Assembly: GCA_000442125.1 (NCBI GenBank)
Contig: KE546979.1
Coordinates: 992,001 to 1,056,000, forward strand
Reading direction: 5' to 3'
DNA from: Opeltia flavorubescens
Taxonomy: Eukaryota > Ascomycota > Lecanoromycetes > Teloschistales > Teloschistaceae
Length of the DNA stretch: 64,000 nt
In this document: piece by piece, positions 1,442-57,382 of the stretch
Layout: each line of letters opens with the position of its first letter
Position numbering within the stretch: position 1 is the first letter of the stretch
Notes under the pieces: model-generated
Told to the model about the DNA's origin: nothing
The model's database searches: none
What the model saw: the letters and a program-made list of their open reading frames with translations, nothing else
Made by a program: the position numbers and the translations under genes

Positions 1442-1920
1442 TTTAATAAACTAGAAGATTATATAAAAAAATTCGAAAATTAATTAAATATATAAAAAAA
1501 GAAGAAATTAATAATATTAATACTAAATTTAATAAACTAGCGGGTTATATAAAAAAATTTAATAATTTAATAAATATATAAAAAAAAAAATTATTAATAT
1601 TAATATTAAGTTTAATAGATTAATAAAAAATATAAAAAAATTTATATAAAAAATTAAAGCTTAAAATAATTATTTAAAATAAAATTATCTATTAATTAAA
1701 AAGTTTTTTACTATTAATAATATTAAAAAAAAATATATAAAGATAAATAAAAAGTAAATAAAATAATCGATTATAGAAATAATAAGCTAAAATATAAGAT
1801 AAAAAGAATTAATAAAATAGTATATTAGATATATAAAAATAAATAATATTAATACTAGATTTAATAAGCTAGTAGAAAATATAAAATATTCGAAAGCTTA
1901 AAATAAATTAATAAACGATA
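1442..1920. repeat. Degenerate repeats of about 85 bp
   Basis: A phrase TTTAATAAACTAG followed by a run ending in ATATAAAAAAA recurs starting near 1442, 1528 and 1611 (spacings 86 and 83), with a further looser copy near 1859. The units are separated by AATATTAATACTAA-like linkers. Seen directly but strongly diverged; it may be a decayed tandem array or repeated coding segments of an old element. Confidence 0.4.
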
Positions 1921-4900
1921 ATTTAATTTAAATATTTAATATATATCGAATCGATTATTAACTTCTATTTACTATTTTTATTATTTATATAACTATTTAT
2001 ATCTAAATAATATAAACTATAATTTATTAAATTTAAATAAAATTTAAATAATATAATATTTAATTTAAAATAGTAAAAATAATAAAAATAGTAAATAATA
2101 AATATATATAATTTAAATACTTATAATAAAAAATAAATATTATTTTTTTTTTAACTTTTAATATATTATAATATATAGTTAAATAAAATATTGAATTATA
2201 TAAATTAAATTTAATTTATTTAATTTTTAATAAAAAAAAAAATTAATATAAATATTTATTAAATATAATAACTATAAAATTATAAATAGAATATAATAAT
2301 AAACAATATTTTATTATATAAATTCAATTATTTTTAATCTATTAATACTTAAGTTTTTAATTTACTATTTTTTATTTATATATATTTTTATATTTTTATT
2401 CTTTTTTTATAATATAATTTCGAATAAAAAAAAATTACTCGATTTAATCTTATTTTATATTTTATTTAAAAATTTATTAGCGGATTAAATAAATTAAATA
2501 AAGAAATAACTAGAATATAAAATATAATTCGAGATTTATATAATTTAAATATTATAATCTATAATTAAAAGTTTTTAATAATAAAAAAATTTATAATATA
2601 TAATTAAATAAACTATTTTAAAAATATAATTTATTATTTTTAAACTAAAATAACTTTTAATTTTTTTTATAATATTATTATTAATTTATAAATATTATTT
2701 ATATATTATATAAAATATTTAAAACTGTAAATAATTAAAAAATTTATAATTTTCTTTTAATATAAAAGGTCTATATTAATTAAAAAGCGAGATTTAATAT
2801 TTAATAATAAAGCTTTTTAAATATTAGAAATAAAGCTAATATTTAATTATATTATTTAAAATAAAGCGCGTTTATTTAAAAAATCTAGTTTAATATTTAA
2901 TTCTATTATTTCTATATAATATAAATAAAAATATAATAATAATAATATTATTATTTTTATACAAACGGCTAGTAAAGTTTTAAATAAATTTATTATTTAT
3001 TTTAATTAAATACGGTTTATTATCTAATTTAAAATAAAGTAGGAATTTCAATTGAAAATAGTTTATATTAGATTAAATTCCGTATTTTAATTATTTATAT
3101 AATAATTTATCTAATTTTTTTTATAATAATAAAAACGAGCTAATTTTAATATAAAATAGATTCGATGCTATTAAAAATTAAAAACCTAATATAATTTTTA
3201 TATTCTTCTATTTCTAGCTTTTTATATAATAGATTCTATTTTAAAAATAATTTTTAGCTTAAATATTCCTTTATTTTCCCGAAATTAATAAAAAATTAAA
3301 AAATTTAAATAAAAACTCGATTATAAAAAAAATAACGAATATTTATTATTTTATAATAAAGATAAAAAAGTTATATAAAAAATCGATTTATTTATAATAT
3401 AATTTTTAATTAATTATAAAAATAAAATTAAACTATATATAATCTATAATAAAATTTATATAAACGTTAATTAATTTACAATAGTAAATGTTTTAAATTA
3501 TAAAATTTTTTATTAATTAATATAAAGAAATAATATTAATATTAAACGTTAATTACAAAAATAAAAAACCTATATAAAATTATCTATTATAATAATAATA
3601 GCTAATTCGAATTTATAAATTTATATAAATAATTTAAAAGTAATAAAGTATATTTAATATATATTATTTAATATATTAATAATAGGCTTTTAATATAATA
3701 ATAAATTAAAAATTTTTTTTATTTATATAATAACTAAAACGAAGCGCCGAAGTTTATTTAAAATAATAAATTTATTAAATTAAATTATTTAACTTTTACC
3801 GCTTTATAATTTTAATTTAATAAAAAAACTTACTAATTAAAAATAAAAATAACTTTTATATTATAATTTATTAAATGATAAAAAATAAACGATTAAAATT
3901 TAAATTCTAAATTAAGTTTATTAATTTATATATATTTTACTTAATATTTAAATATTTAATAGCTAATTATAGAAATAAATATATTTATTAAACCTATATA
4001 ATATAAAGAAAAGGTATAATAATTATATAACTAGGTTATATAGTTATAATTATAGAAAAAAGAGGAAAAAATAGTATAAAAGTAATATTTTTAATAACGA
4101 ATCTACTATTAATTTAATATTCGGTTCTACTATTATATAATACTATTTAATTATTATTAATCGCGATTTTTATATAAATATTACTACTCCAACTTTTATT
4201 CGCTAATTATATACTTTTTTTTACCTTTTACCTATAGCTCTGTTCTCGTTTTTATCCGTATTTATAATTTTAAATATTTTTTTCCGATTTTCTCTTCGAT
4301 TTTATAGTATTACTAGCTATTAATATATATTTAATAAAGTTAAATAATTTAATTAAAACGAAAACTTTATAAAAATAGTATAAATTTTATAATAGATTAT
4401 ATTTTATTAGAAAAAGATAAATATAAAATTAAAAAAGTTAAATTAAAAAAAAATAAAATTAAAATATTTATATTAACTTTTATATATTAATATTAAAATA
4501 AATATAATAATAAACGGTTATAATTTTTATTTAAAAAATAATAAATTTATATTAAATATATTTATTAAATTATTTCCGTTATATTAAAGGTTTTTTTTAA
4601 AAATTTTTAAAAGCTCGCGGTATTTTTTAAAATAATCCTTTTATTATATTTCTTTTTTTATAATTTAATCCTATCGAATATTTAAATTAATTATATCTAG
4701 CGGCTTTTATATAAAAATTATTAAATTAATAAAATAATTAAATTAAATACGCTAAATCTATTTTAAAAAATATATATTTTTAGTCTAATTATTACTAATT
4801 TTTTTCTATTAAAAAATTCAAAACGTTAAATAATAGAATTATAATTTTAGATAAAATTTAGTAATTAAAACTATAATTATATTAGAAAAACTATTTTTAA

Positions 4901-5560
4901 ATTATATTAAATTATTTTTAATTTTAATAAATAGATTTTTAATCTAATAAAGAAATAATTTTATATTTAAAAACCAATATTTTTTATACTCTTTAAATTT
5001 ATTAGGATTATAGCTTTTTATTAAAATTAAGTTAATCTTAAATATAATTTCTTTTATATTAAACTCTAATAGTAATTATTCGATTTTATAACTAGTTATT
5101 TTATAGTATCTAATTATATTTTCTCGACCAGCGGAAAAATAATTATTAATATTATCTATAAATATTAATAAAAATATTAATAATATTAAATTTTATAAAT
5201 AGAAAAAAAAAATTTACTAGCTTTTAAATTAATATATAAATTTATAAAAATAAATAAAAAAGTAAATAAAATACTTTTAATAAATTTTTTAAAATAATAA
5301 ATTTATTTATATTATAAATAATATATTTTAAATTAATTAATTAAATATTAATAATAAGGCGGTTATATTTTATAATTAGATTTAAAAAAAAAAAAGTTTT
5401 TTAATAAATATAAATAAATTTAAATAAAATAAAATATAAATATATATATATTAAAGTCGTTTATAACTATAATTCTAATTTATATTATAATAATTTCGAT
5501 TTATTAATATTATAACTTAAATATTATATTTTTATAAAAGAAAATTTTTAAAATTTTCGA

Positions 5561-5789
5561 TTTATATATTAGTTTTTAATAAATAATCTATAATATTATT
5601 TAAATTATATATTTTTTTCCTTTTATAATATTTAATACTAGCTCGATATTAATTATCTTTTACAAGAAATTAAATTTTTATAAAAAATAGCGCTTATATT
5701 ATTTTATTTATATATTATTTTTTAGTAAACGATCTATAGTATCGTTTAAATTATATATTTTTTTTCTTTTATAATATCTAATACTCGTT
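5561..5789. repeat. Two direct copies of an about 82-bp segment
   Basis: Positions 5561-5642 and 5707-5789 carry the same segment, 146 bases apart. Both begin TTTATATATTA, pass through a shared AAATTATATATTTTTTT block and end in TAATATNTAATACT. Differences are mostly C/T and G/A. The 64-base spacer does not repeat. It is a local duplication inside an unclassified relic. Confidence 0.55.
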
Positions 5790-8785
5790 TAATAGTTTTA
5801 GATTTTAGATAAAATATAATTTCCTATTTTTATTTCTAATAAAATCTTTTTTTTTAAATAAAAGCCTTTAAATTATAACCTTTATTTTTATATTTAAAAA
5901 GACTCTATAAAATATAATATTTAATCTAATATTATTATAAATAAAAAGAGACTTTATATTATATTTAAAAAATTTTACCTATATTTTAATAATAATTATA
6001 GTATTTTCTTTTACTAATTATATTTAAATCTTCTAATATTCGATTTTATAAATATAAATTACTTTTAATTTTAAAATTTATATTATAAAAATTATAAAAG
6101 AAAATAAATATATTATTTTTAATTATATATTATTGATATTTAATAGTTAAAACTTATATTAAAAAATTTATAAAATTTGATTATTATTAATACTATAATT
6201 TATTAAAGTTTTATAACTAATAAATACTAATATTTAATCGAAATATTAACCTTTAATTTTAAAATAATATCGAAGAATTTAAATTAAATAATAGTAATAT
6301 ATTTAATAATAAAATTTCTATTAATTAATTAAATATTAATAAATTTTAAATTATTATTAAAATTATTAAATCGATATTTAATATATTTTATAACTAATAG
6401 AACTAATATATATTATAAAAAAGTCGTAAAATATTATTCAAGTCGAGGTTAGCTATATAAATATAATATAGATTATATCTTTTGTATAATATATAAAATA
6501 GCGATTTAACTAGATCGGACTAGTTTAAATTAAAATAAAGCGATTTAAATAATTTAAATAATAAGTTTATATAATAATTATTATAAAATAGTATTAAATA
6601 GCGCTAGCTTTTTTAATCCTTTGAAATATATATACTTATTTTTAGATTTTTAAAAGCTATAATTATAGTTTATATCTTTTTAAATATTAATATTAGGAAA
6701 TTTAATTAAAAAATAATCTAACTAAATTAAATATATTAATATAGAATAAATAGAATAAAATAATTCGATAATTTAATTAAAAATTTAAAAAGTCGGATTG
6801 AAATATTAAATTAGAATTAATAAAAAAAAAATATATAAAGTCCGTTTAAATTATTCGAATTATAAGCGATATTAAATTAATAACTAGTAGTAGATCTATA
6901 ATTTTATAAACGAGTTCCAGGTTTATATAATATAATATATTTAGAATATAATTCGCGATTATTATAATTTTATTAATAGAGAATCCGTATATATTATTTA
7001 AATAGTTAAATTATTGAAAAAAATATTTTTATTTATTATATTTTAAATAGTAAACTATTTTAAAATATATAATATTTTATTATTATAAACGGATTTGGAT
7101 TAATTATTTATAAAAGTATTAATCGCTATTTATTTTTAAAATATAAAATATAGTTTAAATTAATATTCGAATATTATTTATATATTTAAAGTTATTAAAT
7201 TTAAATTTTTAATTATTATTATTATTAATATCTATTATATTTCTTTTAAATATTTTTATAATAATAAAAAGCGAATATTAAAGTTTAGAAATAAATAAAT
7301 AAAAAATATATTATTAAAATATTAAACCTTAATAGTAATTTAATTATTAATTAATATCGCGATAAATATTTATATATAAATATTAAATATTTAAAAAAAT
7401 TAAATAGATATTTATAAAAATAAAATCTTTAAAATATTTATTAAAAAAATAAAAAAACTTTAAAAATAAAAACATTTCGCCTATTATATATTTATTATTA
7501 AATTATTTTAAAAATTATACTATAAATTTATATAAACTAATAAAATTAAAATTATTTAATATTAGAATATTATTAATATTTTTCTTTTTAAATTTAGGAT
7601 AGAATTTATAGTTAAATACCTATTTTAAAAATAGGCTATTAATTATACCTATTTCGCTAGCCGCGAATCGAAGCTTAAAATTAAGTTTCTATTATAATAA
7701 TAAAATAGAATTAGATATATAAATAAATATCTATTTATACTTTTATCTTACCCGAGTTTTTTTTTATTTTTAATATAATAGATTTAAACGGATATATTAG
7801 AATTTATAATTAAAATAAATAATAACTAAAAAAATAATTTAAAGCGGGATTTATTATTATAAAAATTTATATATATAATATTAAATCTTTTAATAAAGTT
7901 TAGAGCTATTAATAAAAATATACAATTAAAATATTTATATATAAGTTTTTTTAGCTTTAACGCTTTTATAGAGATAGTAGATATATAATATTTTAGAATT
8001 TAGTATTAAAAAAATTGGCGCGATATAAATAACTTTATAAATAATAATAATAATTATTTAAAATTTATAAAAATATAATTAATAATTAAATTTAAAATTA
8101 ATAAAGTAAATAATTTTAAAAAATCTAATATATAATATATTATTATTTTCTCGAATTCGCGTTTTAAAGTATTTATTTAAATTATTAATCGGATTATTTA
8201 ATTTTAATAAATCCTAACCGTTTATATATATTTTCTATATAAATTCTATAATTATTCGTTTAATATATTAGTATATAATTTAAATTTATATTTTTCTCGA
8301 TTTAAAATATTATTAGTATATTAAATTACTAGATTTACTTTAAAAGTATATATAACTAATTAAACCGCTATAATTTTTTAATTTTTTATTTTATAATTTA
8401 GATTTTTATAAAATTAAATTTTATATATACCCGCTATATATAAACTATTTAAAATCTATATCGCGATTATAATATTATCTAAATTTTCTAATATTAAATC
8501 GCTTTTTATTAATTTTTAAATATTTATAATAGATTTTACTAAATTTTTATCGAAATTTCGATAGGATTTTAATATAGATTTCTAGCGAATTTATAGCGAT
8601 TTTACTGCTATTATTTAAAAATAATTCTATATCTCTATTAGAATATATATTAAATATATTTTTATAATATATTAAAAAATTATAGTAATATAAAACGAAT
8701 TTATAGTTAAAATAAAAAATTTATCTATATTTATTAATAATAAGGTTTTTAATAAATGGTCTCGATATTTAACCCTATTTTATTA

Positions 8786-11639: not shown

Positions 11640-14150
11640 ACTATTAATTATTATATAGTACTAGATCTTCCGGGCAGGCCTAATACTCTTTCGCCTATTA
11701 AACTACCGCTTCCGTACTAATACTCGGTTAATAGAGTTAATTAAAATATATTCTAGCTTTTAATCCTCCTAGTAAAGTTTTAGGTACCTTCTATAATAAT
11801 TTAAAAGATTTAACCGACCTCGCTATTATACTAGTTCTTATTATAGCTACCTTTTATATTAAAAAGTTTTAAAAGTATATTAAGCGGTTTTTAGAATAGG
11901 ATCGGGCTCTTATAGTAATTTTTAGAACTTATATTAACTATATCTATAAAAAAAATCCAGGCCTATACCGTTCTTTAATATAGGAATTTTCTAATAGCCG
12001 GGCAATTTAAGCTAGTATAATAAAAGCTAGTATAGTTTTTATTACTACTTACCCTACGGATTAGAGCGAGTACCTATAGATTTTTACTAAAATAATAAGC
12101 GATTTCTGTAATAACGCTACTATAGTTTTTAAAGACGAAGGCTTTTAAGTTTATATTTAAAAGCTAGCTATAAATTTTATCTAGGATAGTTTAAGTCTTT
12201 ATTTTTATTTTTTAAGCTCGCTAAAAAATTTGTAACGGATCGACGAACTTATAAATATTACTGAATTTATTAATACGTTTAAATAGCGAAACTATATTTC
12301 TAATATTAAATCTAGCCCACTTTACTTAATAAAATCGGAAGGGAGTATTATACCGCTATTAAATATAGTAGGAATTCCACTATAATAGTAGCAGGGTGGA
12401 TTTATAGGTAATAGTAATCCGTTATAATAATAGTAAGTTTCTCTAGATAGGTAACTATTTATAAACGCCCGTCTAGCTTAACTACTAGGATTTTTTATAT
12501 AAAACTTCTAGAATTAAATAATTACTATACCGGTAAATCTAATAATTATACTAGCGATTATTAAATCGCAATAAAAGGCTTATAATATTAGTCTATTCTA
12601 ACTAAATAGCGATAAACTATCTATAGAATTTATAGAATTGTATAATATTTATTATAATATATACGCTTTTACGCAGTATATAAAAATTAAATATAAAACG
12701 ATAAATATATCGTTAATACGTTATAACCTGGATTTTTATTTATAAAGCGAAGTAGTTATATAGTTTACTATTATAATTAGTAAGCCTACTCGTAAATCGC
12801 TACAATTAGGTAATAGTATTAAACTATAGTATATATTCTTTAAAAATTATTTCGGCGAGCTACCGTTTATTACGCTAGCGTAGTTAAAATAGATATACTA
12901 TATTATTAACGATATACGGGTTTAAAAAGACTCTTTGGAATACTTTAATAATATTATTATTAAGGTAAAAAACGTAAAGATAGTACTTACTAAAAATACT
13001 TAAGTAATAATTAATATTAAATATTTTAACGCTCGGTTACGAATATTAATTCTAGATAAAATCGTAATAATTATTGTTAAAACCTTTTATAAATTCCTTC
13101 GAAATAAGAAGAATAATTAGTTTAATATTTATAGTAGTAATAAAAACTATAAGGCGCTAAAATTAAACCTTCTATAGAAAGATAAAAGTAAATAATATAA
13201 AGGAGTAGTAGTATATTATCTACTATAAAATAACCCCTTTTATACGCCTAGATATCTATTTATATACCCGAACTATATATAAAGAAACCAGCCGAATATA
13301 TTTTCTATTATATACTAATCCCGGAATCTCTCTATAGCTCCGTAAGCTCCGTTAATTAAGAATAAGTCTAGTATATAAAATAATTAGTATATTATTTAAG
13401 ATAATCGTTAGTAGTTCCTATTTAAGGCTAATACTTTACTATAATAGAATTAAACCGGAAACTAGTAAAACTACGGCTATTAATAGCGTAATAATAGCCG
13501 AAATCTATATAAAAGCTATTAGCTAAATAACTAGCGAGTTTATTTCTAATAAAAAGCTCTTGGTAAGTAGGTTCCGGGTAATAAAACGGAATAATATTAA
13601 AGTTATAAAAACGGCTTTTATTAATTAACGGATTTTACTAGAGCCGAATATATAGTAGACGAAAAACTTAATAAAGCTCTATATACTACTATTAAAGACC
13701 CTAACTAGTATAGTAATATAATAGAATTCTATTTTATTATAATAAAGCGTACGGAACCTAAACCCGAACTAGTAAAAATATATTAATATAATAAATACGA
13801 CGAGATTTTTAAATTAAATAACGCCTTATATCGTTATTTACGCGCTGGTTATAGTAGAAAACTACTCCTAGCTATAACTACTACGGTTAAACCAACTGTT
13901 AAGCTAAATATTTTAGTAGTACTAGCGTAAATTTATTTAAAACTAACTAAACCGTTTAAAAATACGCCGAAGGTTATTAAATCAGAAATTATTAAGTAGC
14001 TGTTATTATAAATACCCTAGTTAATTCGTTTAACCGTAAAGGATACGTTAATAATAGATTTTACCTTTTAAAATTACTATTATATAACCGCAAATATTCG
14101 TTTATAATTAAACGCTAAAAACTATAACTTCTACTAGAATATAGACTGTA
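11640..14150 (+). pseudogene. Gag-like region of Gypsy A (fossil)
   Basis: This 2.5-kb region lies between the 5' LTR and the pol domains, so by position it should be the remains of gag. It aligns along its whole length with 30965-33490 in copy B, so it is an original part of the element. I could not recognise a capsid signature or zinc knuckle by eye. Broken many times. Confidence 0.55.
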
Positions 14151-14169
14151 TAATAAGCTTAATTAATTA

Positions 14170-17100
14170 AAAATTTCTATTTAAACAGCTACTAAATACT
14201 ATAATTTAAAAAATATTAGTTTTTATAAATATTAAAAGTATTAACGAGAGGCGATATAATACTATTAAGTTTATAATTATTAAAATTTTTATATTTAATA
14301 AAAGAGCTATAAAGCTTACTATTATTACGCGCGAGCTTTATTTAGTAAACGATTTAAGCGCTAATATATTTATTAGTATTAATATTATAAAGTTTAAAGA
14401 TATTAATATATACCTATCTACGAATATAATAACTATTAGCTCCTACAATAATATAGTAGTACTAATCGCTACTAGTATTAAAGGTACTAGAATAAACGCT
14501 ATTATTTATAGTACTTAATAAATTATAATACCGCTATACGCTAGTAAGGCCGTTAAAATCGCTAGCCTATATTAAAGTCCTTTAAACCTTTTATAAGACC
14601 GTAACTTTATTTATAAGTTAAAAATTTTAGATACCCTCGCTAGCTATACGTATATTATAGATTATATATTTAAATAAGTTTATATTCGGAATAATACACT
14701 ATTTCCTATTTAATTAGCTATAAAAATTCAGCTAGATATTATTTAAGAATATAAAATTAATAAATACTATTAAATAAACTCGGAAGATTATAAACTAGCT
14801 ATTAAAATATTAAAATAAAAGCCTGGATAGTTTTTAAAGAATTTTAAATATTATATAACAGCCGCTATAATAGCTATTATAGCTTTAAATACCGCTGTTA
14901 TACTATTTATTAATTTTAACTATTAGACGGAAGTAGTATATTTTATAGAAGCAATAATCTTTAAAATATAAGCTGAATAAGCTACCCTAGCTATTCTAAT
15001 TAAACGCTACCCGCGTTTATAGTAAAATACTAATAATATAATTAATATACCGGAGTTAGAGTATATAAATATTCTATTAATAGAAAACTAGAAGTAAATC
15101 TATAAACTCAAGTAAACTTATATATACTCTATTAGTATTCGTAATAAGAAGGTTATTAATAAAGTCTTTAATAAACTTTATAAGTAAAATCAGATAGAAT
15201 AAACTATTATAGCTATCTTATTTTTATTTCTTTACTTTATAGTATAAAAAGATACTGATTAAAGCTTTAAAAGCCGTATTATTATTGATATTCAGGTACT
15301 TAATAAAATTATAATACTAGATACCTACTTAATTCTATTATAAACGGAAATCCTAACGTAGATTTATAATACTAAAGTTCTTTCTATAATTAATTTCGTA
15401 AACTTCTTCTATTAATAGTAGATTAACTAATAGTATCGCTACTATTTAATAATAGTTTTATATTAGAGGTAAGAAACGTTTAAAATACTGGTAATAGGTT
15501 ATTATAACTTACCAGCTTACGTATAATAGATAATAGATAGGATTTTATACCCGTTTTACTCCTTTTATAAAGCCTATATCGATAATATTATAATTTTTTT
15601 TTTTTTAATAGAAGAGTATATAAAATATTTTAACTAGATCTTCAGCACGCTTAATACTATAAATCTGTATTTATTATTTATAAAATCGTTTATTAACTAT
15701 ATATTTATATATCTATTAGGCTAGAAGGTTAATACCTTCGGGCTTATTATAGCGAAAAATAAGTTAAAAGCAATTTTAAAGCTCTTATTTCTATATATAT
15801 TTTAATAACTAAAAAAATATTTAAATTTAATAGGCTACTTTCAGTAGTATATTAGTAATTATACGGCTATTATAAAGCTACTTTAAAAACGTAAAACTTA
15901 TATAAACCGCGATATTACCGTTAGGAATAATATTTATAAAAAAACTACTACCCGAAGTCTACTAGTAGTATTTATATCTAAAGAATTTAACGCGTTTTAT
16001 TATTTATAGAAGCTCTTTTTATCGCTATTAATCCTGGTCCACTTTAATAAAAGTTTAGTATTATATATAGATCTAGACGCTAGTAAAGAGTTCGGTTTTA
16101 TAGTCTATATCTATTATAATATAAACGAAGCCACCTATAAAATAAGCGAAAAATTTAAATAAAAATCTAAACGATCGATTCTATTCTTTAACCGCTTATT
16201 ATTAGACGTTAAAATATACTATTAGCCTATAAAATTAAAGGTTATAAGTATCGTTTAAGTAGTTAAAAAGATCCGTTATATAATCGAAGTAATTAAATAT
16301 ATTATTATTATTTATACGGACTATTCTACTATAGTTAGTATTTTACGCTAGACTAGCTTAAATATAGTATTTATAAAAAAGCTTAACCTTCGTTTAATAT
16401 AAGCTTCTGAATATTTTTAATATTTTAGGTTTAATATCCGTTATAAGTTTAAAGTTATAAATATAGTTTTAGATATATTATTAAGGCTTATTAGCTGTAA
16501 ATACCGCCTGGAAATAAACGAATCGCTAGATATAGAGGCCTTTATAGTGCGTTATTTCCCGGTAAACCTAGTAAAAATATTAACTGAATTCCGCTAACGA
16601 TTAATCGATAGGTATATAAAAAAAGGCCGTTAGGCTAAAATTAAGGAATCTGTTAAAGCTAATATAAAATTAGGTAATAATACTATTAAACTACCGTACT
16701 GTATTATTAACGCGCTATTTTATTTTAATAATAATAAACGAGGCTTACGTTTAATAATACCTATAGATATAAAAAAGGAAGTATTCTAGCTAGTATATAA
16801 TAAAATAGGCTATCCCGGCTATATACGCACGTATAAACGTTTAATAGAAGGCTTTTATATATATAATATATCAACGAAGTTGTATAAGTTTATTCGCTAC
16901 TATCTATAGTACTAAATTAATTAAATATTTCGCTACTGCCTATACGGAGTTTTATAGCTAGTATTCAGCCTAATAAAACCGTTCTATACGCTTACTATCG
17001 ATTTTATCCTCGTTCTACTAAAATCGTATAAAAAATATAATTATTATATATTAGTAATAAATAAATTTATTAAAGTAGTTATCTATATACTTAAAAAGAC

Positions 17101-18340
17101 TATTTAAAGCGGTAAATAATAGGCCGAATAGCTATTAAATAAACTGGTAAAGTTAAATTAGGGCGTACCGCGAGTAGTAATTTCGGATTATAATAGAAAG
17201 TTTATAGATTAGTTATAGCGTTAAATATTTAAGGTATTAAAGGTAGATTTATAGTATTCTACTATTTAGTATCTATAAACTAATAGTATATTAGAACGGT
17301 TTAATTAAATCGTTGAAATTATTATACGCTATTATATCGTTATATTAAACGATTTTAAGCTATAGTTTACTATTCTTTTATAAATATTAACGGCTCTAAA
17401 TAACTCTATAAACTATAGTTCTATACTTAAAATACCTAATTAAGTATTATTTAGATTTAAAACTCGTGAAATACTAAACCTTCTATACCTACTAGACCCT
17501 AAGTAAACTATCTAGCTAGAAGATACGCTAGGCCCTAAAGCTCCTATCGACGCTCCCGTTAAAGAACCAGCTACTTTTTTAGCTATAATATAGATAGCTC
17601 GTCGCTGTAACCCGACTGTTTTAAAAACTAACGAGCCTATAAACGTACTTATAATACGGAATACTATAGTATTAATAACCGTAGAAGAGTATTAACCTAT
17701 ATATATTAATATTAAAGATACTATTACTTTTACTATAATAAAAATAAAAAAATATTATAATATATATTATTAACTAGTTTATTTTAAAGTTAGCGATTTT
17801 ATAAAGATATATTTATATTAAAGCTATAATATATCGGGGTTCACGTTTAAAAAGATTAAATAATAGCTAGTAAGCCCTTTTAAAATCATTAAACGTATTA
17901 GACTATTAGCCTACTATTTAAAACTACTACCTATTATAAAAATTTACGATATAATATCGGTGGTATATTTAGAGCTTACTACTAACTCTAGCGATAATTC
18001 TTACTAGCGTTATTATATATTTATACCCCTAGTCGTCGTTAATAGTAATAAAAAGTTCGAAATCGAACGAATCCTCTATAAGCGCTATATCTATAAGGGT
18101 AAAGGTTTTTTTACTTAATATTTTATTCGTTAAGTTAATTATAGGCCTAAAAATAATTAATAGATACCTAAATACCACCTAGATAATATTAAGATACTAG
18201 TAGAAGAGTATAAGCGCCGTTTTAGCCTGGAATCGGCTTTAAATTACGATAAGGCTATTAATAATACTAATATTAATATTAAATAGTAGGAATAAGTTAA
18301 GGAGCCGCTTATCAGCGAGGAAGAGCCTATTATTAGAGGC
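14170..18340 (+). pseudogene. Pol region of Gypsy A: PR, RT, RNase H, IN, chromodomain
   Basis: Fossil pol, read on the plus strand. A retropepsin-like stretch lies near 14330-14500. The reverse transcriptase spans roughly 15050-15700, with its Y-x-D-D-type active-site block near 15574. An RNase H start block, with the D-A-S element typical of fungal Gypsy elements, lies near 16065-16090 and the domain runs to about 16470. The integrase zinc-binding region is near 16790-16960 and the catalytic core near 16985-17400. A chromodomain-like segment lies near 18050-18200. RT and RNase H preceding IN exclude Copia. In chromoviruses the chromodomain steers insertion toward heterochromatin, which fits this location. 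The frames are broken throughout by RIP. Confidence 0.8.
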
Positions 18341-25236: not shown

Positions 25237-25396
25237 TGTAATAAATAAAGAATATACAGTATATAAAATCTGGTAGTAAATAGGTTGATTCCTAAATCTT
25301 TATAGAATCGCTGTAAAAAGTATAAGAACGCTAAGCGTACTAGGCCTAATCCGATAGTAATATCGAGGCTTATATTTTTTATAATAGAATTGTAAC
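25237..25396 (+). repeat. Element Z terminal repeat, copy 1
   Basis: Outermost left repeat. It contains the family core CTAGGCCTAATCCG followed by TAGTAATA. Its end overlaps the TGTAAC start of copy 2, as if one terminal repeat had been duplicated in tandem. Confidence 0.7.
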
Positions 25397-25551
25397 GAAT
25401 AAAAAATATATAGTATATAAAATCTGGTAGTAAATAGATTGATTGCTAAATTTCTATAAAATCGCTATAAAAAGTATAAGAACGCTAAGTATACTAGGCC
25501 TAATCCGGTAGTAATACCGAGGCTTACGTTTTTTATAGTAGAATCGTAATA
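25391..25551 (+). repeat. Element Z terminal repeat, copy 2
   Basis: 161 bp, direct orientation. It is directly followed by the interior, which begins GATGCC as in the 45-kb copy. Confidence 0.75.
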
Positions 25552-25574
25552 GATGCCTACAAAAAATATAAAAA

Positions 25575-25610
25575 GCAGCGCCCTCGCTGCTAATAGCGCC
25601 GGCGAGGTAC
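25575..25610 (+). other. Conserved GC-rich double hairpin in Z interior
   Basis: GCAGCG-CCCT-CGCTGC forms a perfect 6-bp stem, followed at once by AGCGCCGGCGAGGT containing the palindrome CGCCGGCG. The same arrangement occurs at 45201-45236 with almost no change, although the surrounding DNA here has been RIP-mutated. Its position just inside the left terminal repeat is where LTR elements carry packaging or primer signals. That role is inference. Confidence 0.6.
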
Positions 25611-27159
25611 TATAGAGATAATAGACGCTCAGTATATATAATTTGTATATATTTTATATTCTAGATTCTATATAACCCGTAGTAATACCTCTAGCAGGTA
25701 TTTTAATAAAAATTTGCTTATTTTCTATATATTATTCTCTTCTAGTATATAGTTAATATATATAATATATATATTAAATATATTATATATACTTTATATA
25801 CTATATATACTAAATCTACTAAATCTATTATATAGTATAGGGGGGTACTACAGCGAAAAAGAGGTATATAACGGCGAAATAAAAGGTATAATACGTATTT
25901 AATTTAAAAAAATAGCTTTTAATTGATTAAATTTAATTATATTAACTAAAACTTAAATTTATACATTTAAATACTATATTCTAATTAGCTAAAAACGAAC
26001 TGTATATTTAATATATACTTATTTAGAGTTAAATTTTTTAAAAAACTAGTCGATTATTATCTATAGCTTTTTTTAGCGTTTATATAATAGTAAATATAAT
26101 AGTATATATAGGTTTAAAAAAGATTTCTCGTGCGATTTAATATATTTAATAGATATAAATAATAAAATTTCTTATAGTAATATAGTAGGGGTTTATAGAA
26201 TTATTTATAAAGAGTATAAAGGTATTAATAAAAATACTAGTATATATATATTTAATATATAAATATATTTTTTATAGTTTTAAAAAGTATTTAATAAAGA
26301 TTTCTCGTTATTTTAAATAGTTTTTTTCTAGAGATTTCGTATAGAATAAGAACGCAACTATTATTTACTATAGGGTAGTAGGCGATAAAAAGCTCCCGGT
26401 ATATACAGCTGAAATATACTTATATAGCTATATATTTAATAAAAATCTCTTTAAATACCGGCGGTATTTATAATAAAATTAATATTTAAATATTATTTAT
26501 ATTTAATTAATTTCTATAAAAGTTTTTTATTTAGCTTTTTATATTATAGCAGCTTGTTTTTTTTATTCTTCCTTGCGTTCTCGTATTATTTTTACCTAAA
26601 CTACTACTAATTTTTCGAGAACGAAAAAGTATTTAAGTAACTTAATATAGTATTACTTTAAAGGATCGATAAAAATAGTTCAATTATTTAAAGCGAGATT
26701 ATAGGCTTTATATTTAATTTAATCTTTATCCTCTATAATAGAATTATAATTAAAACTAGTAGAAATTATATAAAATAGGTATAAAAGATTAAAAAACGGC
26801 TAATTAACAAATTCTAGCTTTTTAAAAGAGAAATATTTTATTTTTTTAGTAATTATATAGGTGGTAAAAAAAGAAAATTTTTTATAGGCTATTTGATAGG
26901 TAATTTAATAGATAGACGATTTAGTAAACGAATACTATATAATAATTAGATACTTTTCAATAAAATAGATATAAATTTAATAAAATAAATACTTAAAATA
27001 GATACTAGTAAATAACTAGTAGTTTTTATAGAATAATTAGGTACTGTCGAAGCTACTAGATATTATATAGTAACTAGTACTATTTAAACTGCTAGATACT
27101 ATAGGGTAATTGGGGTATAATAATATAAATAGGATTTAAATATATTAATTGCTATTATT

Positions 27160-27320
27160 TATAACGAATATAAAATATATAATATATAAAATTTAGTAGT
27201 AAATAAGTTGATTGCTAAATTATTATAGAATCGCTATAAAAAGTATAAAAACGCTAAACGTACTAGGCCTAATCCGGTAGTAATACCGAGGTTTATATTC
27301 TCTATAATAGAATTATAATA
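27160..27320 (+). repeat. Element Z terminal repeat, copy 3 (right end)
   Basis: 161 bp in the same orientation as copies 1 and 2, and somewhat more mutated. Immediately right of it Gypsy C resumes after TTTTT. Confidence 0.75.
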
Positions 27321-30703: not shown

Positions 30704-30908
30704 TGTTGCGGCCACACCGTATGGGCAGAAGGCTGATAGGGCAGGTAGGGCTGAATGGCCACCGTGGCTCGAAGGAGGCCTTTTAAGCATATTTACCCAG
30801 TTGGATTTAGCGCCTTTTAGCGCCTATATTTATTTAGTTATAGATTTTATAGGTAGATAGTTCCTTACCTTTAATATAATACTATTACCCCACGCCTACT
30901 ATACAACA
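30704..30908 (+). repeat. 5' LTR of Gypsy B
   Basis: 205 bp, beginning TGTTGCGGCC and ending ACAACA, the clean TG..CA pair that fixes the LTR ends of the family. The first 85 bases are almost free of RIP changes, as in copy A. Confidence 0.92.
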
Positions 30909-30927: not shown

Positions 30928-33489
30928 AACTCGTATAAAACACGGTACTATTAACTTCCGTATATATATACTATTAACTATTATACAGTACTAGATCTTT
31001 TAGATAGGCCTAGTACTTCTTCGCCTACTAAATTACCGCTTCCGTACTAATACTCGGTTAATAGAATTAACTAAAATATACCCTAGCTTCCAATCCTCCT
31101 AGTAAAGTTCTAGGTACCTTCTATAATAATTCGGAGGACCTAACCGACCTCGCTATTATACTAGCTCTCGTTATAGTTATCTTCTATATTAAGGAGTTCT
31201 AAAAGTATATCGAGCGGTTTTTAGAATAGGATCGGGCCCTTACGGTAATCCTTAAAACCTATACCGACTATATCTATAAAAGAAGTCCAGGCCTATATCG
31301 TTCTTTAATATAGAAATTTTCTAGTAGCTAGACAACTTAAGCTAGTGTAATAAAAGCTAGTATAGCTCCTATTACTACTTACCCTATAAATTAGGGCGAG
31401 TATCTACGAATCTTTACTAAAGTAATAAGCGATTTCCGTAATAACGCTACTATAGTCCTTAAAAACGAAAGCTTTTAAGCCTATACTTAAGAACTAGCTA
31501 CGAATTTTACCTAGGATAGTTTAGGCCTTTATTTTTATCTTTCGGGCTTATTAGAAGACTCGTAACGGCTCGACGAATTTACGAATATTACCGAATTTAT
31601 TAATACGTTTAAATAGCGAAACTATATTTCTAGTATTAAATCTAGCCTACTTTATTTAGTAAAATCGGAAGGGAGCGTTATACCGCCGCTAGAGATGGCA
31701 GGAATTCTATTATAATAATAGTAGGGTAGATCTACAGGTAATAGTAATCTGCCGCAGTAGTAGCAAGTTTTTCTAGATAGGCAATTGCTTATAGACGCCC
31801 GTCTAGTTTAACTACTAGAATTTTTTATATAAAACTTCTAGAATTAAATAATTACTATACTAGTAAATTTAGTAGCTATACCAGTAATTACCAAGTCGTA
31901 ATAAAAGGCTCGTGATATTAGTCTATTCTAACTAGATAGCGATAAGCCGCCTATAGAGTCTATAGAGTCGTATAATATCTATTACGATATATATACTTTT
32001 ATGTAGCGTGTAAAAATTAAATACGAAACGATAAATATATCGTTAATATATTATAACCTGGATTTTTATTTATAGAGCGAAGCAGTTATATAGTTTACTA
32101 CTATAATTAGTAAGCCTACCTGTAAATCGCTACGATTAAACGACGGTATTAAATTATAGTATATATTTTTTAAAGACTATTTCGGCGAGCTACCGTCTAC
32201 TACGCTAGCGCAGCTAGAGTAGATACGCTATACTATTAACGATATACGGGCTTAAAAGGACCCTTTAGAATATTTTAATAATATTATTATTAAGGTAAAA
32301 AACGTAAAGATGGCACTTATTAAAAGTACTTAAATAATAATTAGTATTAAGTATCTTAACGCTCGGCTATAAATATTAATTCTAGATAAAACTATAATAA
32401 CTATCGTTAAAGCCTTTTATAAGTTTCTTCGAAATAAAAAGAATAATTAATTCGATATCTATAATAGTAATAAAAACCGCGAGGCGCTAAAATTAANCCC
32501 TCCGTAAAAGGATAAAAGTAAATAACGTAAAGGAATAGTAGTATACTAGCCGTTATAAAATAACCCTTTCTATACGCCTAGATATCTATTTACGTACCTG
32601 AACTATATATAAAAAAACTAACCGAATATATTTCCTACTATATATTAATACCGGAATCTCTTTATAGCTCTGTAAGCTCCATTAATTAAGAGCGAGTCTA
32701 ATATATAGAATAATTAGTGTACTGCCTAAAATAATCGTTAGTAGTTTCCGCTTAAAATAATTACGCCGCTATAATAGAATTAAACCGGAAACTAATAAAG
32801 CTATAGCTATTAATAGCGTAATAACAGCCGGAATCTATACGGAAACCACTAGCTAAATAACTAACGAGCCTACTTCCAACAGGAAGCTTCCGGCGAGTAG
32901 GTTCTAGGCGATAGAATAGAGTAGTACTAGAATTATAAGAATAGCTTCTACTAATTAACGGACTTTACTAGAGCTAAATATATAGTAGACGAGGAGCTTA
33001 ATAAAGCTCTATATACTGCCGCTAAAGATCCTAACTAGTATAATAATATAGTAGAATTCTACTTTACTATAGTAAAGCGCACGGAACCTAAATTAGTAAA
33101 AATATATTAATACGATAAATACGACGAGATTTTTAAATTAAATAACGCCTTATATTGTTATCTACGCGCTAGCTATAATAGAAAACTACTCCTAGCTATA
33201 GCTACTACGGTTAAACCAACTATTAAGCTAAACGTTCTAATAGTACTAGCGTAAACTTACTTAAAACTAGCTAAGCCGCTTAAAGATACGCTAAAGGTTA
33301 TTAAACTAGAGATTATTAAGTAGCTACTATTATAAGCACCCCAGTTAATTCGTTCAACCGTAAAAGATATATTAATAATAAGCTTTATTTTCTGAGGATA
33401 CCGTTATATAACCGTAAATATTCGTTTATAACTAAACGCTAAAAACTATAACTTCTACTAGAATATAGGCTGTATAATAAGCCTAATTA

Positions 33490-36400
33490 ACCGAAAATTT
33501 CTATTTAAATAACTACCGTATACTACGATTTAAAAAATACTAGCTTCTATAAATATTAAAGGTATTAGTAAAAGATAATATAATACTACTAAATTTATAA
33601 TTATCGAAATCTTTGTACCTAATAAAAAAGCTATAGAGCTTACTATTATTACGCGCGAGCTCTATCTAGTAGACGATTTAAGCGCTAATATACTTATCGA
33701 TATCGATATTATAAAGCCTGAAGATATCGATATATATTTATCTATAAATATTATAACTATTAGCTCCTATAATAATATAGTAGTGCCAATCGCTACTAGT
33801 ATTAAAAATACTAGAATAAGCGCTATCGTCTATAGCACTCAACGAGTTATAGTGCCGCTACACGCTAATAAGGCTGTTAAAATCGCTAGCCCACACCGAA
33901 GCCCTTTAAATCTTTTATAAAACTATAATTTTATTTATAAATTAAAAACTCTGAATACCCTCGCCAGTTATATATATATTATAGATTATATACTTAAATA
34001 AGTCTACGTTCGAAACGATACGTTATTTCTTATCTAATTAACTATAAAAACTTAGCTAGGTATCGTTTAAGAATATAAAGCTAATAAATACTATTAAATT
34101 AGCTTAAAAGATTATAAACTAGCTACTAAAACGCTAAAATGAAAGCCCGGATGGTTTTTAAAGAACCTTAAACGCTATATAATAGCCGCCGTAATAGCTA
34201 TTATAGCCCTAAATACCACTATTATACCATCTATTAATTTTAATTATTAGACGGAAGTAGTATATTTTATAGAGGTAACGATCTTTAGAATATAAGCTAA
34301 ATAAGCTATTTTAGCTGCCCTGATTAAACGTCACCCGCGCCTATAATAAAATACCGGTAATATAATTAATATACCGGAGTTAGAGTATATAAATATTTTA
34401 CTAATAGAAAACTAGGAGCAAATCTATAAGCCCGGGCAAGCCCGTATATACCCTATTAGTACCTATAATAAGAAGGTTATTAACAAGGTCTTTAATAAGC
34501 TTTACGAGTAAAATCGGATAGAATAGACTATTATAACCACCCTATTTTTATTTCCTTACTTCGTAGTATAAAAAGATACCGATTAAGGCTCTAAAGGCCG
34601 TATTATTATCGATATTCAGGTATTTAATAAGATTATAATACTAGATGCCTATTTAGTTCTACTATAAACGGAAATCCTAGCGCAGATTTGTAGCGCTAAA
34701 GTCCTTTCTATAGTAGACTTTACAAGCTTTTTCTACTAATAATAGATTAACTAGTAGTACCGTTACCGCCTAATAATAGTTTTATATTAAGGGTAAAAAA
34801 CGTTTAAAGTGCCGATAATAAGCTATTATAACTTACTAGCTTACGTATAACGAATAATAAATAGGATTTTATACCCGTTTCGCTCCTTTTATAAAGTTTA
34901 TATTAATAATATTATAATTTTTTCCTTTTTAATAGAAGAGCACGTAAAGTATTTTAACTAGATTTTTAATATACTCGATACTATAAATCTATATTTATTA
35001 CCTACGAAATCGTTTATTAACTATATATCTATATACCTATTAAATTAAAAGGTTAATACCTTCGGGCTTACTATAATAAAAAATAAGNTAGAAGTAATTT
35101 TAAAGCTTTCGTTTCCACGTACGCTCCGATAACTAGAAAAATATCTAAATTTAATAAGCTACCTTCGGTAGTATATTAGTAATTATACGGCTATTATAAA
35201 GCTATTCTAAGAATGTAAAACTTATATAAACCGTAATATTACCGTTAAAGGTAATATTTATAAAAAAGCTATTACCCGGAATCTATTAGCAGTATCTATA
35301 TTTAAAGAATTTAACGCGTTTTACTATTTATAAAAGCTCTTTTTATTGTTATTAATCCTGGTCCACTTTAATAAAAGCTTAGTACTGTATATAAATCTAG
35401 ATACTAGTAAAGAGTTTAGTTTTATAGCTTATATTTATTATAATATAGACGAAGCTACCTATAAAGTAGGTAAAAAATCTAAATAAAAATTTAAGCGATT
35501 AATTCTATTTTTTAACCGCTTACTATTAGACGCTAAAATATACTATTAGCCTACGGAATTAAAGGTCGCAAATATCGTTTAAATAGTTAAAAAGATCCGT
35601 TATATAATTAAAGCAGCTAAATATATTATTATTATCTATATAGACTATTCTACCGTAGTTAGCATTTTATACTAGATTAGCCTAAATATAATATTCGTAG
35701 AAAAGCTTAACCTCTATTTAATATAAACTTCCGAATACCTTTAATACTTTAGGTTTAATATTTATTATAAGCCTAGAATTATAAATACGGTTCTAGATAT
35801 ATTATCGAGGCTCGCTAGCTATAAATACCGCCTAGAAATAGACGAATTATTAGATATAGAGGCTTTTATAGTACGTTATTTCCCGGTAAATCTAGTAGAA
35901 ATATTAGCCGAATTCCGTTAACGATTGATCGATAGGTATATAAAAAAGGGCCGTTAGACTAAAATTAAGGAATCCGTTAAAATTAATACAAGGCTAGATA
36001 ATAATACTATTAAACTACCGTACCGTATTATTAACGCGCTACTCTATTTTAATAATAATAAGCGAGGCCTACGCTTAATAATACCTACGGATATAGAAAA
36101 GGAAGTATTCTAGCTAGTATACGATAAAATAGGCTACCCCGGCTATATATATACGTATAAATATCTAACGGAAGGCCTCTATATATATAATATATTAACG
36201 AAGCTATATAAATTTATTCGCTATTACCCGCAGTACTAAATTAATTAAATACCTCGCTACCGCTTATACGGAGCCCTATANCTAGTATTNAGCNTANTAA
36301 GACNNTTNTATANNCTTANTATTAATTTTATCCTCGCTCTACTAAAATCGTATAAAGGATATAATTATTATATATCGGTAATAGATAAATTTACTAAGAT

Positions 36401-37665
36401 AGTTATCTATATATCTAAAAAGACCACCTAGAGCGGTAAATAATAGGCCGAATAGCTATTAGATAGACTAGTAAAGTTGAATTAAAGCGTACCGCGAGTA
36501 GTAATTTCGAATTATAATAGGAAGTTCGTGGGTCAACTATAGCGCTAAATATTTAAAGTATTAAAGGTAGATTTATAATATTCTACTATCTAGTATTCGT
36601 AAATTGATAGTATATTAGAATAATTTAATTAAACCGCTAAAATTACTATACGCTATTATATTGCTATACTAGACGATTTTAAACTATAGCTTATTATTTT
36701 TTTACGAATATTAGCGGTTTTAAATAACTCTATAAATTATAGTTCTATATTTAAAATATTTAATTAAGTGCTATTCGGATTTAAAACTCGCGAAATACTA
36801 GACCTTTTATATTTATTAGACCCTAAGTAAGCTATTTAACTAGAAGATGCGCTAGATTTTAAAGCTCCCGTCGACGCTTCCGTTAAAGAACCAGCTGCTT
36901 TTCTAGCTATAATATGGATAGCTCGTCGTTATAACCTAACTGTTCCGGAAGCTAACAAGTTCGTAAACGTACCTGCGGCACGGAATATTATAGTACCGGT
37001 AATTATAAAAAAGTACTAGCCTATATATATTAATACTAAAAATATTATTACCTTTACTATAATAAAAATAAAAGAATATTACGATATATACTACTAATTA
37101 GTTTATTTTAAAGTTAGCGATTTTATAAAAATACGCTTATATTAAGGCTATAATATACCGGGGTTTATATTTAAAAAGATTGAATAATAGTTAATAGGCC
37201 CTTTTAAAATTATTAAATATATTAGACTATTAGCCTATTATTTAGAGCTACTACCTACTATAAAAATTTATAATATAATATCGGTAGTATATCTAGAGCC
37301 TACTATTAACCCTAGCGATAATCTCTACTAGCGCTACCGTATATCTATACCCTTAATCGTTGTTAATAGTAATAAAGAGTTCGAAATCGAACGAATCCTT
37401 TGTAAGCGCTGTATCCGTAAGAATAGAGGTTTTTCTACTTAATACCTTATTCGTTAGGTTAGTTATAGGTTTAAAAACGACTAGTAGATACCTGAATATC
37501 GCCTAAATAATACTAAGGTACTAGTAGAAGAGTATAAGCGCTGCTTTAGCCCGGAATCGGTCCTGGATTATAATAAGGCCGCTAATAATACTAATATTAA
37601 TATTAAGCAGTAGGAATAAGCTAAAAAGCCGTTTATTAATAAGGAAGAGCCCACTATTAGAGGCT
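33490..37665 (+). pseudogene. Pol region of Gypsy B: PR, RT, RNase H, IN, chromodomain
   Basis: Fossil pol in the same order as in copy A, shifted by about 19.33 kb. The retropepsin-like stretch lies near 33660-33830, reverse transcriptase near 34375-35030 with its active-site block near 34900, and RNase H near 35345-35795. The integrase zinc-binding region is near 36120-36290 and its core near 36310-36730. The chromodomain-like tail lies near 37375-37525. The presumed gag region is 30965-33490. Many breaks; no working product expected. Confidence 0.8.
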
Positions 37666-44000: not shown

Positions 44001-45007
44001 ATATATATTATATTTTTTTATTTTTATTAATAAAATTAATAGTAATAATAATGGAAAATATTTTATTAATAACTAAAAAAACTTTTTTAGAAATAGATAT
44101 AAATAAAAAAAAACTATTATAATATATAAATTTAATATATTAATTTATCCTTTTTAGAAAATATAAAATAATATATATAATATTTAAAACTAATATTAGA
44201 TTTTATATAATAAATAAAAATTTTATAAATAATAAAATAATTTATTATTTTTTTTCAATTAAAAATTATTAAATAATAATATTAAATAAATAATATATAT
44301 TATAAATTCAGCTTTAATTATTAATAATAATATTTTTTTTTTAAAATTAAAATATTAAATATTTATATATTTTAGAAAATTTTATTAAATATTAAAATTT
44401 TAGAACTTTTAAAATTTATAATAAAAAATATAAAATTAAAAAAAAATTTATAAAAAAATAAAAGTATTAAATAAAATTAAATTATAATAAAAATAATATA
44501 AATTTAAATTTAATAAAAAATTTATATTAAATGAATTTTTTTATAATATATTTATATATAAAAAATAAAATTATATTATTTAACAGGAGATTTTTAATAT
44601 TAATAATATAAATTAAATTATTTAAAATTTTATAATTTTAATTTATTATATTTATTATAATATAATATAATTTTTAAAAAAAGTTATTAAATATTATTAA
44701 ATTTTATAAATATAATTTAATATAATAGAATATTAAATATTAAAAACTATAAATAATATATTCTATTATTATAATTAATTTTAATATTAGTACTAAATTT
44801 CTTTTATATATAAAATAATACTATTTTAATATTTTATATATATTAAAAAATTTTTTTATTAATAAATATTTATTAATATTATTTATTTTTAAATTATTTA
44901 TTTATCTAATATAAATTCAAATACGCGCGTTTTATATAAAAAATTTAGCTATTTATTATATAGATATCGCTTTATTATAAAATAATAAAAATAATATTAT
45001 AAAAATA
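38001..45007. other. Extremely AT-rich DNA, nothing recognised
   Basis: Seven kilobases with almost no G or C by eye. No gene, RNA or known element fragment was detected. Short AT repeats such as (AT)n near 40220 and 41660, and A- or T-tracts, are everywhere. Slightly less AT-rich patches at 38630-38660, 38990-39030 and 43860-43910 could be traces of very old elements. Confidence 0.65.
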
Positions 45008-45178
45008 TTAAAGTGCAGAATATATATAGTATAAAAAGTAGATAGTTGAAAAGTTGATTGCTAAATCTCTATAGAATCGCTGTGAAATATGTGAGAATAC
45101 TAAGGCGCGCTAGGCCTAATCCGGTAATAATACCTTGGCATATGTTCTCCACGGTACCCTATAGCAGAACCGTGACAG
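45008..45178 (+). repeat. Left inverted terminal repeat of 45-kb Z element
   Basis: 171 bp. Against the direct-repeat copies it is in the plus orientation, ending CCGTGACAG next to the interior. It shares GGCGCGCTAGGCCTAATCCG with its partner and carries the CCACGGTACCCTATAGCAG stretch of the 57-kb solo copy. Confidence 0.85.
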
Positions 45179-45200
45179 ATGCCCACAAAAAACACAAAAA

Positions 45201-45236
45201 GCAGCGCCCTCGCTGCCAGTAGCGCCGGCGAGGTGC
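45201..45236 (+). other. GC-rich double hairpin of Z (45-kb copy)
   Basis: GCAGCG-CCCT-CGCTGC (45201-45216), then AGCGCCGGCGAGGTGC. CCTCGC and GCGAGG can also pair across the whole unit. Same sequence and position as 25575-25610. Confidence 0.65.
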
Positions 45237-45881
45237 CTAGGGAGCATTGACGCTCTTTGCATGCATTTCACTACCAGAAATATCGTTGCTTTCATGCCCT
45301 AAAATCTCGTTGCTTACCCAGCTGGTTCCAATCCACATTGCGACCGTATTTTCCAACCTGTTTCTCCATACCCTTTTGACCAATGAGCTTATCGCATTCC
45401 TGCTGAGGTAAGCGAGCACATCGGTGGCGACGTAGCTTGCGATTCGAAGTGGCCACAGTGGTGCAGCGCTTGCATGCATAAAGGCGTGGAGAATATGTAT
45501 AAGAATATACAGTGGGTGCAGGGGGGTGTAGCGGCGAGGGTGGGGTATACGGCGGCGAAATGGGGGGNGGCGCAATTTACTTCTGCGCAAAATCAGCACT
45601 AAATTGCTTAGGATAAATTTGATTTAAAAGTACTATATTTAAGCGCTTTTAAATACTTATTTCTAATTGGTTAGAATTAAACTAAATATTCGTTAGCGGC
45701 ATTTTTGGTTTGCAGAGCCTCTTTAGTGCTATTGAATTCGTTAGTACCTGCTATTTCTCCTGGCGCTCAGCATGAATTATAAAGGTAGGTGTAGAGATAC
45801 TAGTATATATAGTAGAGAGCGTGTTTTCGTTACCACCAAATTTATAGGTAAGAGCTATCTTCTTCTCCCCTATTATTATAA

Positions 45882-46052
45882 CTGTCACGGTTCTGCTATA
45901 GGGCACCGTGGAGAATATATACCAAGGTATTATTACCGGATTAGGCCTAGCGCGCCTTGGCATTCTTATATATTTTATAGCGATTCTATAGAGATTTAGC
46001 AATCAATTTCTCAACCACCTACTTTTTATACTATATATATTCTGTATCTTAA
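45882..46052 (-). repeat. Right inverted terminal repeat of 45-kb Z element
   Basis: 171 bp, reverse complement of 45008-45178. It starts CTGTCACGGTTCTGC at the inner edge and ends TATATTCTGTATCTTAA. It is slightly more mutated than the left end. Confidence 0.85.
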
Positions 46053-46096
46053 TAAAAAAAAAGATATTATTATTTTTAATAATAGATTAATTTATA

Positions 46097-57210: not shown

Positions 57211-57382
57211 TATAACGAATAAAAAATATACAATATATAAAATCTGGTAATAAATAAGTTAATTGTTAAATCTCTATAAAATCGCTATAAAATATATAAA
57301 AATGCTAAGACGCGCTAGGCCTAATCCGGTAATAATACCTCGGTATATATTTTCCACGGTACTCTATAGCAGAACCGTAATA
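57211..57382 (+). repeat. Solo terminal repeat of element Z in X2
   Basis: 172 bp from TATAACGAAT to CCGTAATA, in plus orientation, with no interior or partner nearby. Its GACGCGCTAGGCCTAATCCG and CCACGGTACTCTATAGCAG stretches group it with the 45-kb copy rather than the 25-kb copy. The flanks TCAAA and GAAAA match at only three of five bases, so the target duplication is unclear. A solo repeat is the usual result of recombination between two LTRs, which supports the LTR reading of Z. Confidence 0.75.

Follow-up and report, generated by a model that had tools for sequence, protein, structure and literature searches.

An inverted pair of LTRs around a short interior

Positions 45006-46054 of the window, by which we mean the whole 64,000-nucleotide stretch of DNA analysed, hold an LTR, the first ~703 bp of an LTR-retrotransposon interior and a second, inverted copy of the LTR, with a total inserted length of 1,049 bp. 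In an inverted-repeat search of the window, the two arms (45006-45178 and 45882-46054; 173 nt each, 91% complementary, 703 nt between them) rank best among 25 of the 51 inverted pairs, followed by the right arm paired with a solo LTR at 57 kb (86%), with the other listed pairs at 70-74%. Comparison with the family places the LTR proper at 172 bp, namely 45006-45177 (+) and 45883-46054 (-), with one additional base on the inward side of each copy, G at 45178 and C at 45882. We use U3 and U5, by convention, for the start and the end of the LTR; both outer ends of the locus are U3 ends, and TATAAA lies 25 nt inside each arm. The original prediction had described facing copies of a repeat around a 703-bp interior that opens as in LTR-form copies. 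Both points hold, the interior being colinear with the first 703 bp of fuller family copies, and the predicted limits fell 2 nt short at each end. The features of the locus and of its relatives in the window are as follows.

45001-45005, + strand: left target-site copy, AAAAA, in the A-tract of a high-copy RIPped repeat
45006-45177, + strand: left arm, sense LTR, TATTAAAG...GTGACA, U3 end outward
45178-45881, + strand: interior start, GATGCCC... as in other copies, almost RIP-free, with a single N at 45568
45882, no strand: extra base C at the inner joint, equal to the G past the LTR end in the LTR sense
45883-46054, - strand: right arm, inverted LTR, with U5 facing the inner joint and U3 outward
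46055-46059, + strand: right target-site copy, the beginning of the rest of the A-tract
25237-27320, + strand: subfamily B copy of the same LTR lineage, LTR-LTR-interior-LTR, with TTTTT on both sides; limits by eye
57211-57382, + strand: solo LTR of the family, 5-bp flanks unmatched; approximate limits by eye

The LTR family across the assembly

Searches of the assembly (34.4 Mb, 23 contigs) returned 86 matches to the whole element (40 of 41 candidates scored), 35 to this LTR and 32 to the LTR of a second subfamily, and 20 regions, then 6 further ones, were examined. The RIP-like pattern and the genome size point to a probably fungal host. At each of the 14 other examined loci holding at least two LTRs (L029-L040, L043 and the 25-kb copy in the window, which is L071; L069, which has three fragments on one strand, is not counted), the LTRs are direct. 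Single or partial LTRs occur at L042, L044, L045, L046, L067, L068, L070 (which overlaps L041) and at 57 kb in the window, and no LTR match was found in L047 or L048. Target duplications, scored in eight copies with L034, L039, L043 and the arrays outside the scoring, are identical 5-bp sequences in seven (L029 GCTCT, L030 AGAAA, L031 AAAAT, L032 TTTTA, L033 CTAGA, L035 TAATT and L037 GTATA); the flanks of the eighth, L038, agree at four of five bases (CTTTT/TTTTT). The LTR has TG...CA ends, opening with TG, often RIPped to TA, then TTAAAG, TTAGGG or similar, and closing with ...GTGACA, in which the CA is likewise often RIPped to TA. On direct inspection, the LTR is followed by GATGCCCACA, without TGG where a PBS is expected, and the 3' LTR is preceded by CAATTGCTACCATT, which is not purine-rich where a polypurine tract is expected.

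The family is an ordinary LTR retrotransposon, and the inverted locus is classed as a derivative of it, not a regular member, its right LTR being the inverted one. The expectation that a single family displays both direct and inverted ends is supported by this locus set against the 14 direct ones. The 57-kb repeat is, as anticipated, a solo LTR of the family with approximate limits; the 25-kb copy is indeed in direct orientation, but is an array of three LTRs and not a plain pair. An extra 5' LTR is present in two subfamily-B copies at separate sites, the one at 25237-27320 in the window and L036 (about 560-2662), and these arrays represent a second irregular form that integrated. L036 reads LTR, 12 bp of the 3' interior end, LTR, interior, LTR, enclosed by a GCTAT duplication; in the window array, which is enclosed by a TTTTT duplication, the first LTR is without its last bases.

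The inner joint was found once

In ten other family copies, the region aligned with the inner joint reads ...TATAA-A-TTTTT... (TATAT-A in L034), whereas the inverted locus reads ...TATAA-C-TGTCACGG, the continuation being the reversed U5 end of the LTR. The aligned base is thus A in 10 of 10 other copies and C here, and this C is the counterpart of the G found just past the LTR end in most 5' LTRs. At the inner joint the LTR runs to its exact U5 end and one further base follows, without evident homology; this extra C may have come from a chance transversion.

A RIP-tolerant junction pattern (34 places, at most 3 mismatches) matched once in the assembly and not at all in the reversed control. 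Since this pattern would miss inverted LTRs joined elsewhere, the orientations of the 35 LTR matches were also read. L036 (+) and L037 (-) lie about 5.5 kb apart on C18, each a direct-LTR copy with its own duplication (GCTAT and GTATA, respectively); on C11, the LTRs of L070 (+) and L042 (-), 13.7 kb apart, are parts of apparently one split element. Opposite LTRs more than 10 kb apart are found on C2 (1733.8 kb versus 1720.1 kb) and in the window (right arm versus the 57-kb LTR). With the junction found once in the assembly and only direct LTRs at the 14 other examined loci that hold several, the locus stands alone among direct-repeat copies, and the inverted-end element type raised in the original prediction is rejected.

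Evidence for insertion of the inverted form as a unit

Both flanks of the locus belong to a high-copy, heavily RIPped repeat; the two flank searches gave at least 205 and at least 189 matches, with 40 of 1442 and 40 of 1495 candidates scored, respectively. Eleven paralogs of the flanks were examined, picked for adjoining matches in both searches, and in all 11 the site is uninterrupted, that is, empty. When the two flanks are projected onto the paralogs, they overlap by 4 nt in eight of them, by 5 in two and by 6 in one. The purine tract at the site measures 10 nt in ten paralogs (one of these, L085, with Ns) and 9 nt in L081, against 5 + 9 = 14 nt at the inverted locus, about 4 above the empty sites. 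This gives a target duplication of 4 nt, which becomes 5 nt when the last LTR base, an A, is counted with the tract; its length is uncertain between these values (it is 5 in the family) because it sits in an A-tract. Random flank 4-mers match by chance in 3.9% of cases and 5-mers in 1.8%; the duplication alone is thus moderate evidence, which the empty sites make strong. Together, the 11 empty paralogs and the approximately 4 extra bases indicate that a 1.05-kb molecule was inserted with its two U3 ends outward. The inverted-LTR molecule came in as one unit.

This unit insertion with its own target duplication, seen against 11 empty paralogs, argues against a decayed head-to-head pair, which had been among the proposed explanations. 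The suggestion of a different mobilisation route survives in a narrower form, as a single aberrant cDNA integrated whole.

Ty3/gypsy relatives and the likely source of enzymes

One copy with the same LTR, L035, spans ~8.9 kb from LTR to LTR (LTR up to 91.7% the same; target duplication TAATT) and carries Ty3/gypsy remnants in the orientation of the element itself, covering reverse transcriptase to integrase (E = 1.6e-105; 1078 columns, 28%) and Gag (E = 1.5e-12). These were found by tblastn with the intact gypsy-type ORF of another locus, L066, as the query and with the low-complexity filter and composition correction off; weak matches in L030 and L037 (E about 0.01) were disregarded. A same-LTR copy thus carries remnants of Gag and of RT-RNase H-integrase. 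Searches of the genome with the Pfam models RVT_1, rve and RVT_2 listed no match in any family copy, and they are insensitive to RIPped copies, since they also found nothing at L035 or at the gypsy remnants in the window; a Pfam scan of four short L035 ORFs likewise gave nothing. The 3.4-kb copy L029 has only the first 216 and last 226 bp, LTRs included, in common with L035. A nucleotide comparison of L035 with the reverse transcriptase loci yielded diffuse AT-rich matches and was not used. Presumably, the 3.4-kb copies and the inverted locus are non-autonomous passengers of a Ty3/gypsy element, and an element of the L035 kind probably supplied the small copies with enzymes.

L066 itself (positions 80-6589; G000:C12, about 978.6-985.1 kb) contains an intact 2169-aa gypsy-type Gag-Pol ORF, with RVT_1, two RNase H-like models, Integrase_H2C2 and the Tf2-1 SH3 model above the cut-offs and rve below. 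It has no direct repeats of at least 60 bp in 9.9 kb, but the ORF begins 80 bases from the edge and a left LTR would fall outside; the adjoining ORF looks SNF2-like by eye. Two decayed gypsy elements in the window, at 12647-18130 and 31905-37454, match the L066 ORF (E = 3e-133 and 2e-170, respectively); apart from the inverted locus itself, the main regions of lower AT content in the window are where these two elements lie.

Base composition, RIP and age

As originally predicted, the locus is the GC-rich stretch of the window: the three richest 500-bp intervals (step 250 bp) begin at 45001, 45251 and 45501 (0.454, 0.442 and 0.394), and the next, at 30751, reaches 0.36. The interior has retained C or G at 221 of 231 scorable sites, a loss of 10 (4%), compared with losses of 22-62% in seven other family copies, so that the near-absence of RIP is substantiated for the interior. 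Recent arrival, which had been read from this composition, fares less well. The 173 arm positions include 16 differences, all of them transitions, without a transversion or an indel; this is the fewest among nine LTR pairs and weakly favours youth, but it is close to the 17 substitutions of L029 (the other seven pairs have 20-28), so that a spared interior need not mean a young one. The inverted copy has only ~0.87 kb in common with fuller copies, at 67-83% identity, and, being short, may simply have escaped RIP.

Two patterns of mutation in the arms are not claimed. Fourteen of the 16 arm differences are G/A on the LTR sense strand, but TG sites are themselves in excess of CA sites (14 versus 6); a test of TG against CA gives p = 0.34, and one of all G against all C gives p = 0.0097. 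Loss in the left arm exceeds that in the interior (14% versus 4%, p = 0.018), but the result depends on the threshold (4% versus 3%, p = 0.66, at a stricter one).

Origin of the inverted form

A reading that we consider somewhat probable is that a non-autonomous LTR retrotransposon, itself probably dependent on Ty3/gypsy, gave an aberrant reverse-transcription product, and that this was inserted in one piece to form the locus. As the plus strand extended through the leader, reverse transcriptase would have quit its template at about base 703 and jumped onto a dead-end plus-strand strong-stop DNA (U3-R-U5) at its free 3' end. Copying of this DNA to its 5' end would create an inverted LTR delimited exactly at either side, and the strong-stop DNA itself could provide the right arm with its second strand. 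Integrase would then have joined the resulting linear duplex, with its two U3 ends, to the chromosome like a normal copy. A strong-stop origin is proposed because the inverted LTR extends exactly from the U3 start to the U5 end, as plus-strand strong-stop DNA does; these ends are assumed, since no PBS or PPT can be assigned in the family. The action of integrase on both U3 ends is deduced from the target duplication. In the Ty3 model reviewed in PMC5371799, repeated priming at the PPT yields plus-strand strong-stop DNA more than once; the second such molecule stops at U5 because the tRNA is gone by then, and dead-end products build up in the particles of yeast Ty3. The extra 5' LTR in L036 and the 25-kb window copy, a second irregular integrated form in the lineage, was counted for an aberrant product, as were the exact joint with its one extra base and the lack of transversions and indels between the arms. 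Counted against the inference that the arms were identical at insertion are their 16 present differences. The template jump rests on a single event and would account for an aberrant product, not for an inverted-end family.

Autointegration and end joining are the main rivals to the template jump. The former, which we regard as rather improbable, would have the U5 3' end of a cDNA attack its own interior, or a sister cDNA, at ~703, and the inverted-LTR piece would later be freed and integrated. It accounts for a joint at the U5 end of the LTR; integrase should, however, join CA straight to the target without an extra base, so that the base present at the joint counts mildly against it. Inverted 2-LTR circles for Ty (PMC4751563) and rearranged circles in retroviruses (PMC3148978) are described as its products. 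These are circles, and removal of just the remaining interior exactly at the U3 border needs a further precise step. In the latter, end joining would unite two cDNA pieces, one with an LTR plus 703 bp and one as long as an LTR, before integration. We judge this unlikely: the lack of evident homology at the joint and its one extra base speak for it, but it requires a free double-stranded fragment of LTR length with exact U3 and U5 limits. The strong-stop duplex is normally attached to the remainder of the cDNA. Nonhomologous end joining of linear Ty DNA is a route to circles according to PMC4751563.

Most improbable in our view is a nested insertion, in which an antisense copy would have entered an ordinary resident element at base 703 and been reduced to a solo LTR, with deletion of what remained of the resident. 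Single LTRs of the family exist, for example at 57 kb in the window, but the right limit is an exact LTR end followed by the target duplication, 11 of 11 examined paralogs are uninterrupted, and the deletion would have had to stop exactly there. Still harder to credit is an assembly artefact, by palindromic collapse or chimerism. The one N inside the element (45568) and the proneness of assemblies to error at inverted repeats point that way, yet an artefact would hardly give exact LTR ends, a target duplication of 4-5 nt and 16 differences between the arms.

Comparison with known systems

With the Ty3/gypsy relatives (L035 of ~8.9 kb, and relatives of 3.4 kb and about 1.9-2.0 kb without detected genes), the inverted locus shares the 172-bp LTR, the TG...CA-type ends and a short target duplication, and with the 3.4-kb copies also the start of the interior. 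It differs from them in its inverted right LTR, in retaining the first 703 bp of the interior only and in having two U3 ends outward. Fold-back transposons and MITEs, including the TTAA-targeting kind of DNA transposon, are likewise short, with inverted ends and no evident coding capacity, but here the ends are retrotransposon LTRs. In piggyBac-type transposons, the TTAA target duplication lies outside the inverted repeats. The TTAA of the locus lies within the LTR terminus (TG-TTAAAG, here RIPped to TA-TTAA), with an A-tract outside that is also present in the empty sites; TTAA sites flanking the element, as originally described, were therefore not found, and a TTAA-target DNA transposon was rejected.

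Penelope-like elements have variable target duplications and repeats in either orientation. Their features do not fit a family with 5-bp duplications in seven of eight copies and one inverted case only. DIRS and other tyrosine-recombinase retroelements are not known to leave a target duplication, and inverted repeats are a feature of the whole family; here a target duplication is present and the 14 other multi-LTR loci are direct. DIRS-1 is described as a retroelement with inverted LTRs (PMC5633606). It encodes a tyrosine recombinase and integrates circular intermediates. The inverted 2-LTR circles that autointegration gives in Ty1 and the rearranged circles of MoMLV, RSV and HIV-1 likewise have mutually inverted LTRs with the joint at a U5 end. 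Such forms are described as unintegrated circles (PMC3148978, PMC4751563), whereas the present one is linear, shortened and integrated with a target duplication.

Meaning and precedent

No integrated inverted-LTR case with a target duplication was recognised among the papers listed from the full-text literature searched, a corpus with subscription journals mostly outside it. Gypsy-25 of locusts is said in PMC8786324 to have an inverted LTR pair, without coordinates or target duplications in the relevant passages, which may be a precedent or loose wording, and the matching phrase in PMC6189423 refers to LTRs in inverted chromosome regions. The empty sites and the target duplication make the locus evidence for the integration and inheritance of a linear form with inverted LTRs. 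This suggests that malformed retrotransposon copies can still insert and that a pair of identical U3 ends is acceptable to integrase in vivo. It also opens a possible one-step path from LTR elements to inverted-end elements. We offer more tentatively, and with some doubt, the idea that the machinery of LTR retrotransposons makes, and integrase accepts, linear DNA with two U3 ends, thereby producing a fold-back element in one step; its two inward-facing promoters could supply double-stranded RNA against its own family.

Other rearranged copies of the family

L040 is a tandem of LTR-interior-LTR-interior-LTR with differing 5-bp flanks (CGATT and CTATA, by eye), as from unequal recombination. L070 and L042 (G000:C11, 700.9-715.4 kb) seemingly represent one 3.4-kb element split at bases 2618/2622, with a 5-bp overlap. 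The halves lie in opposite orientation about 11 kb apart, indicating an inversion, perhaps via another element inserted there.
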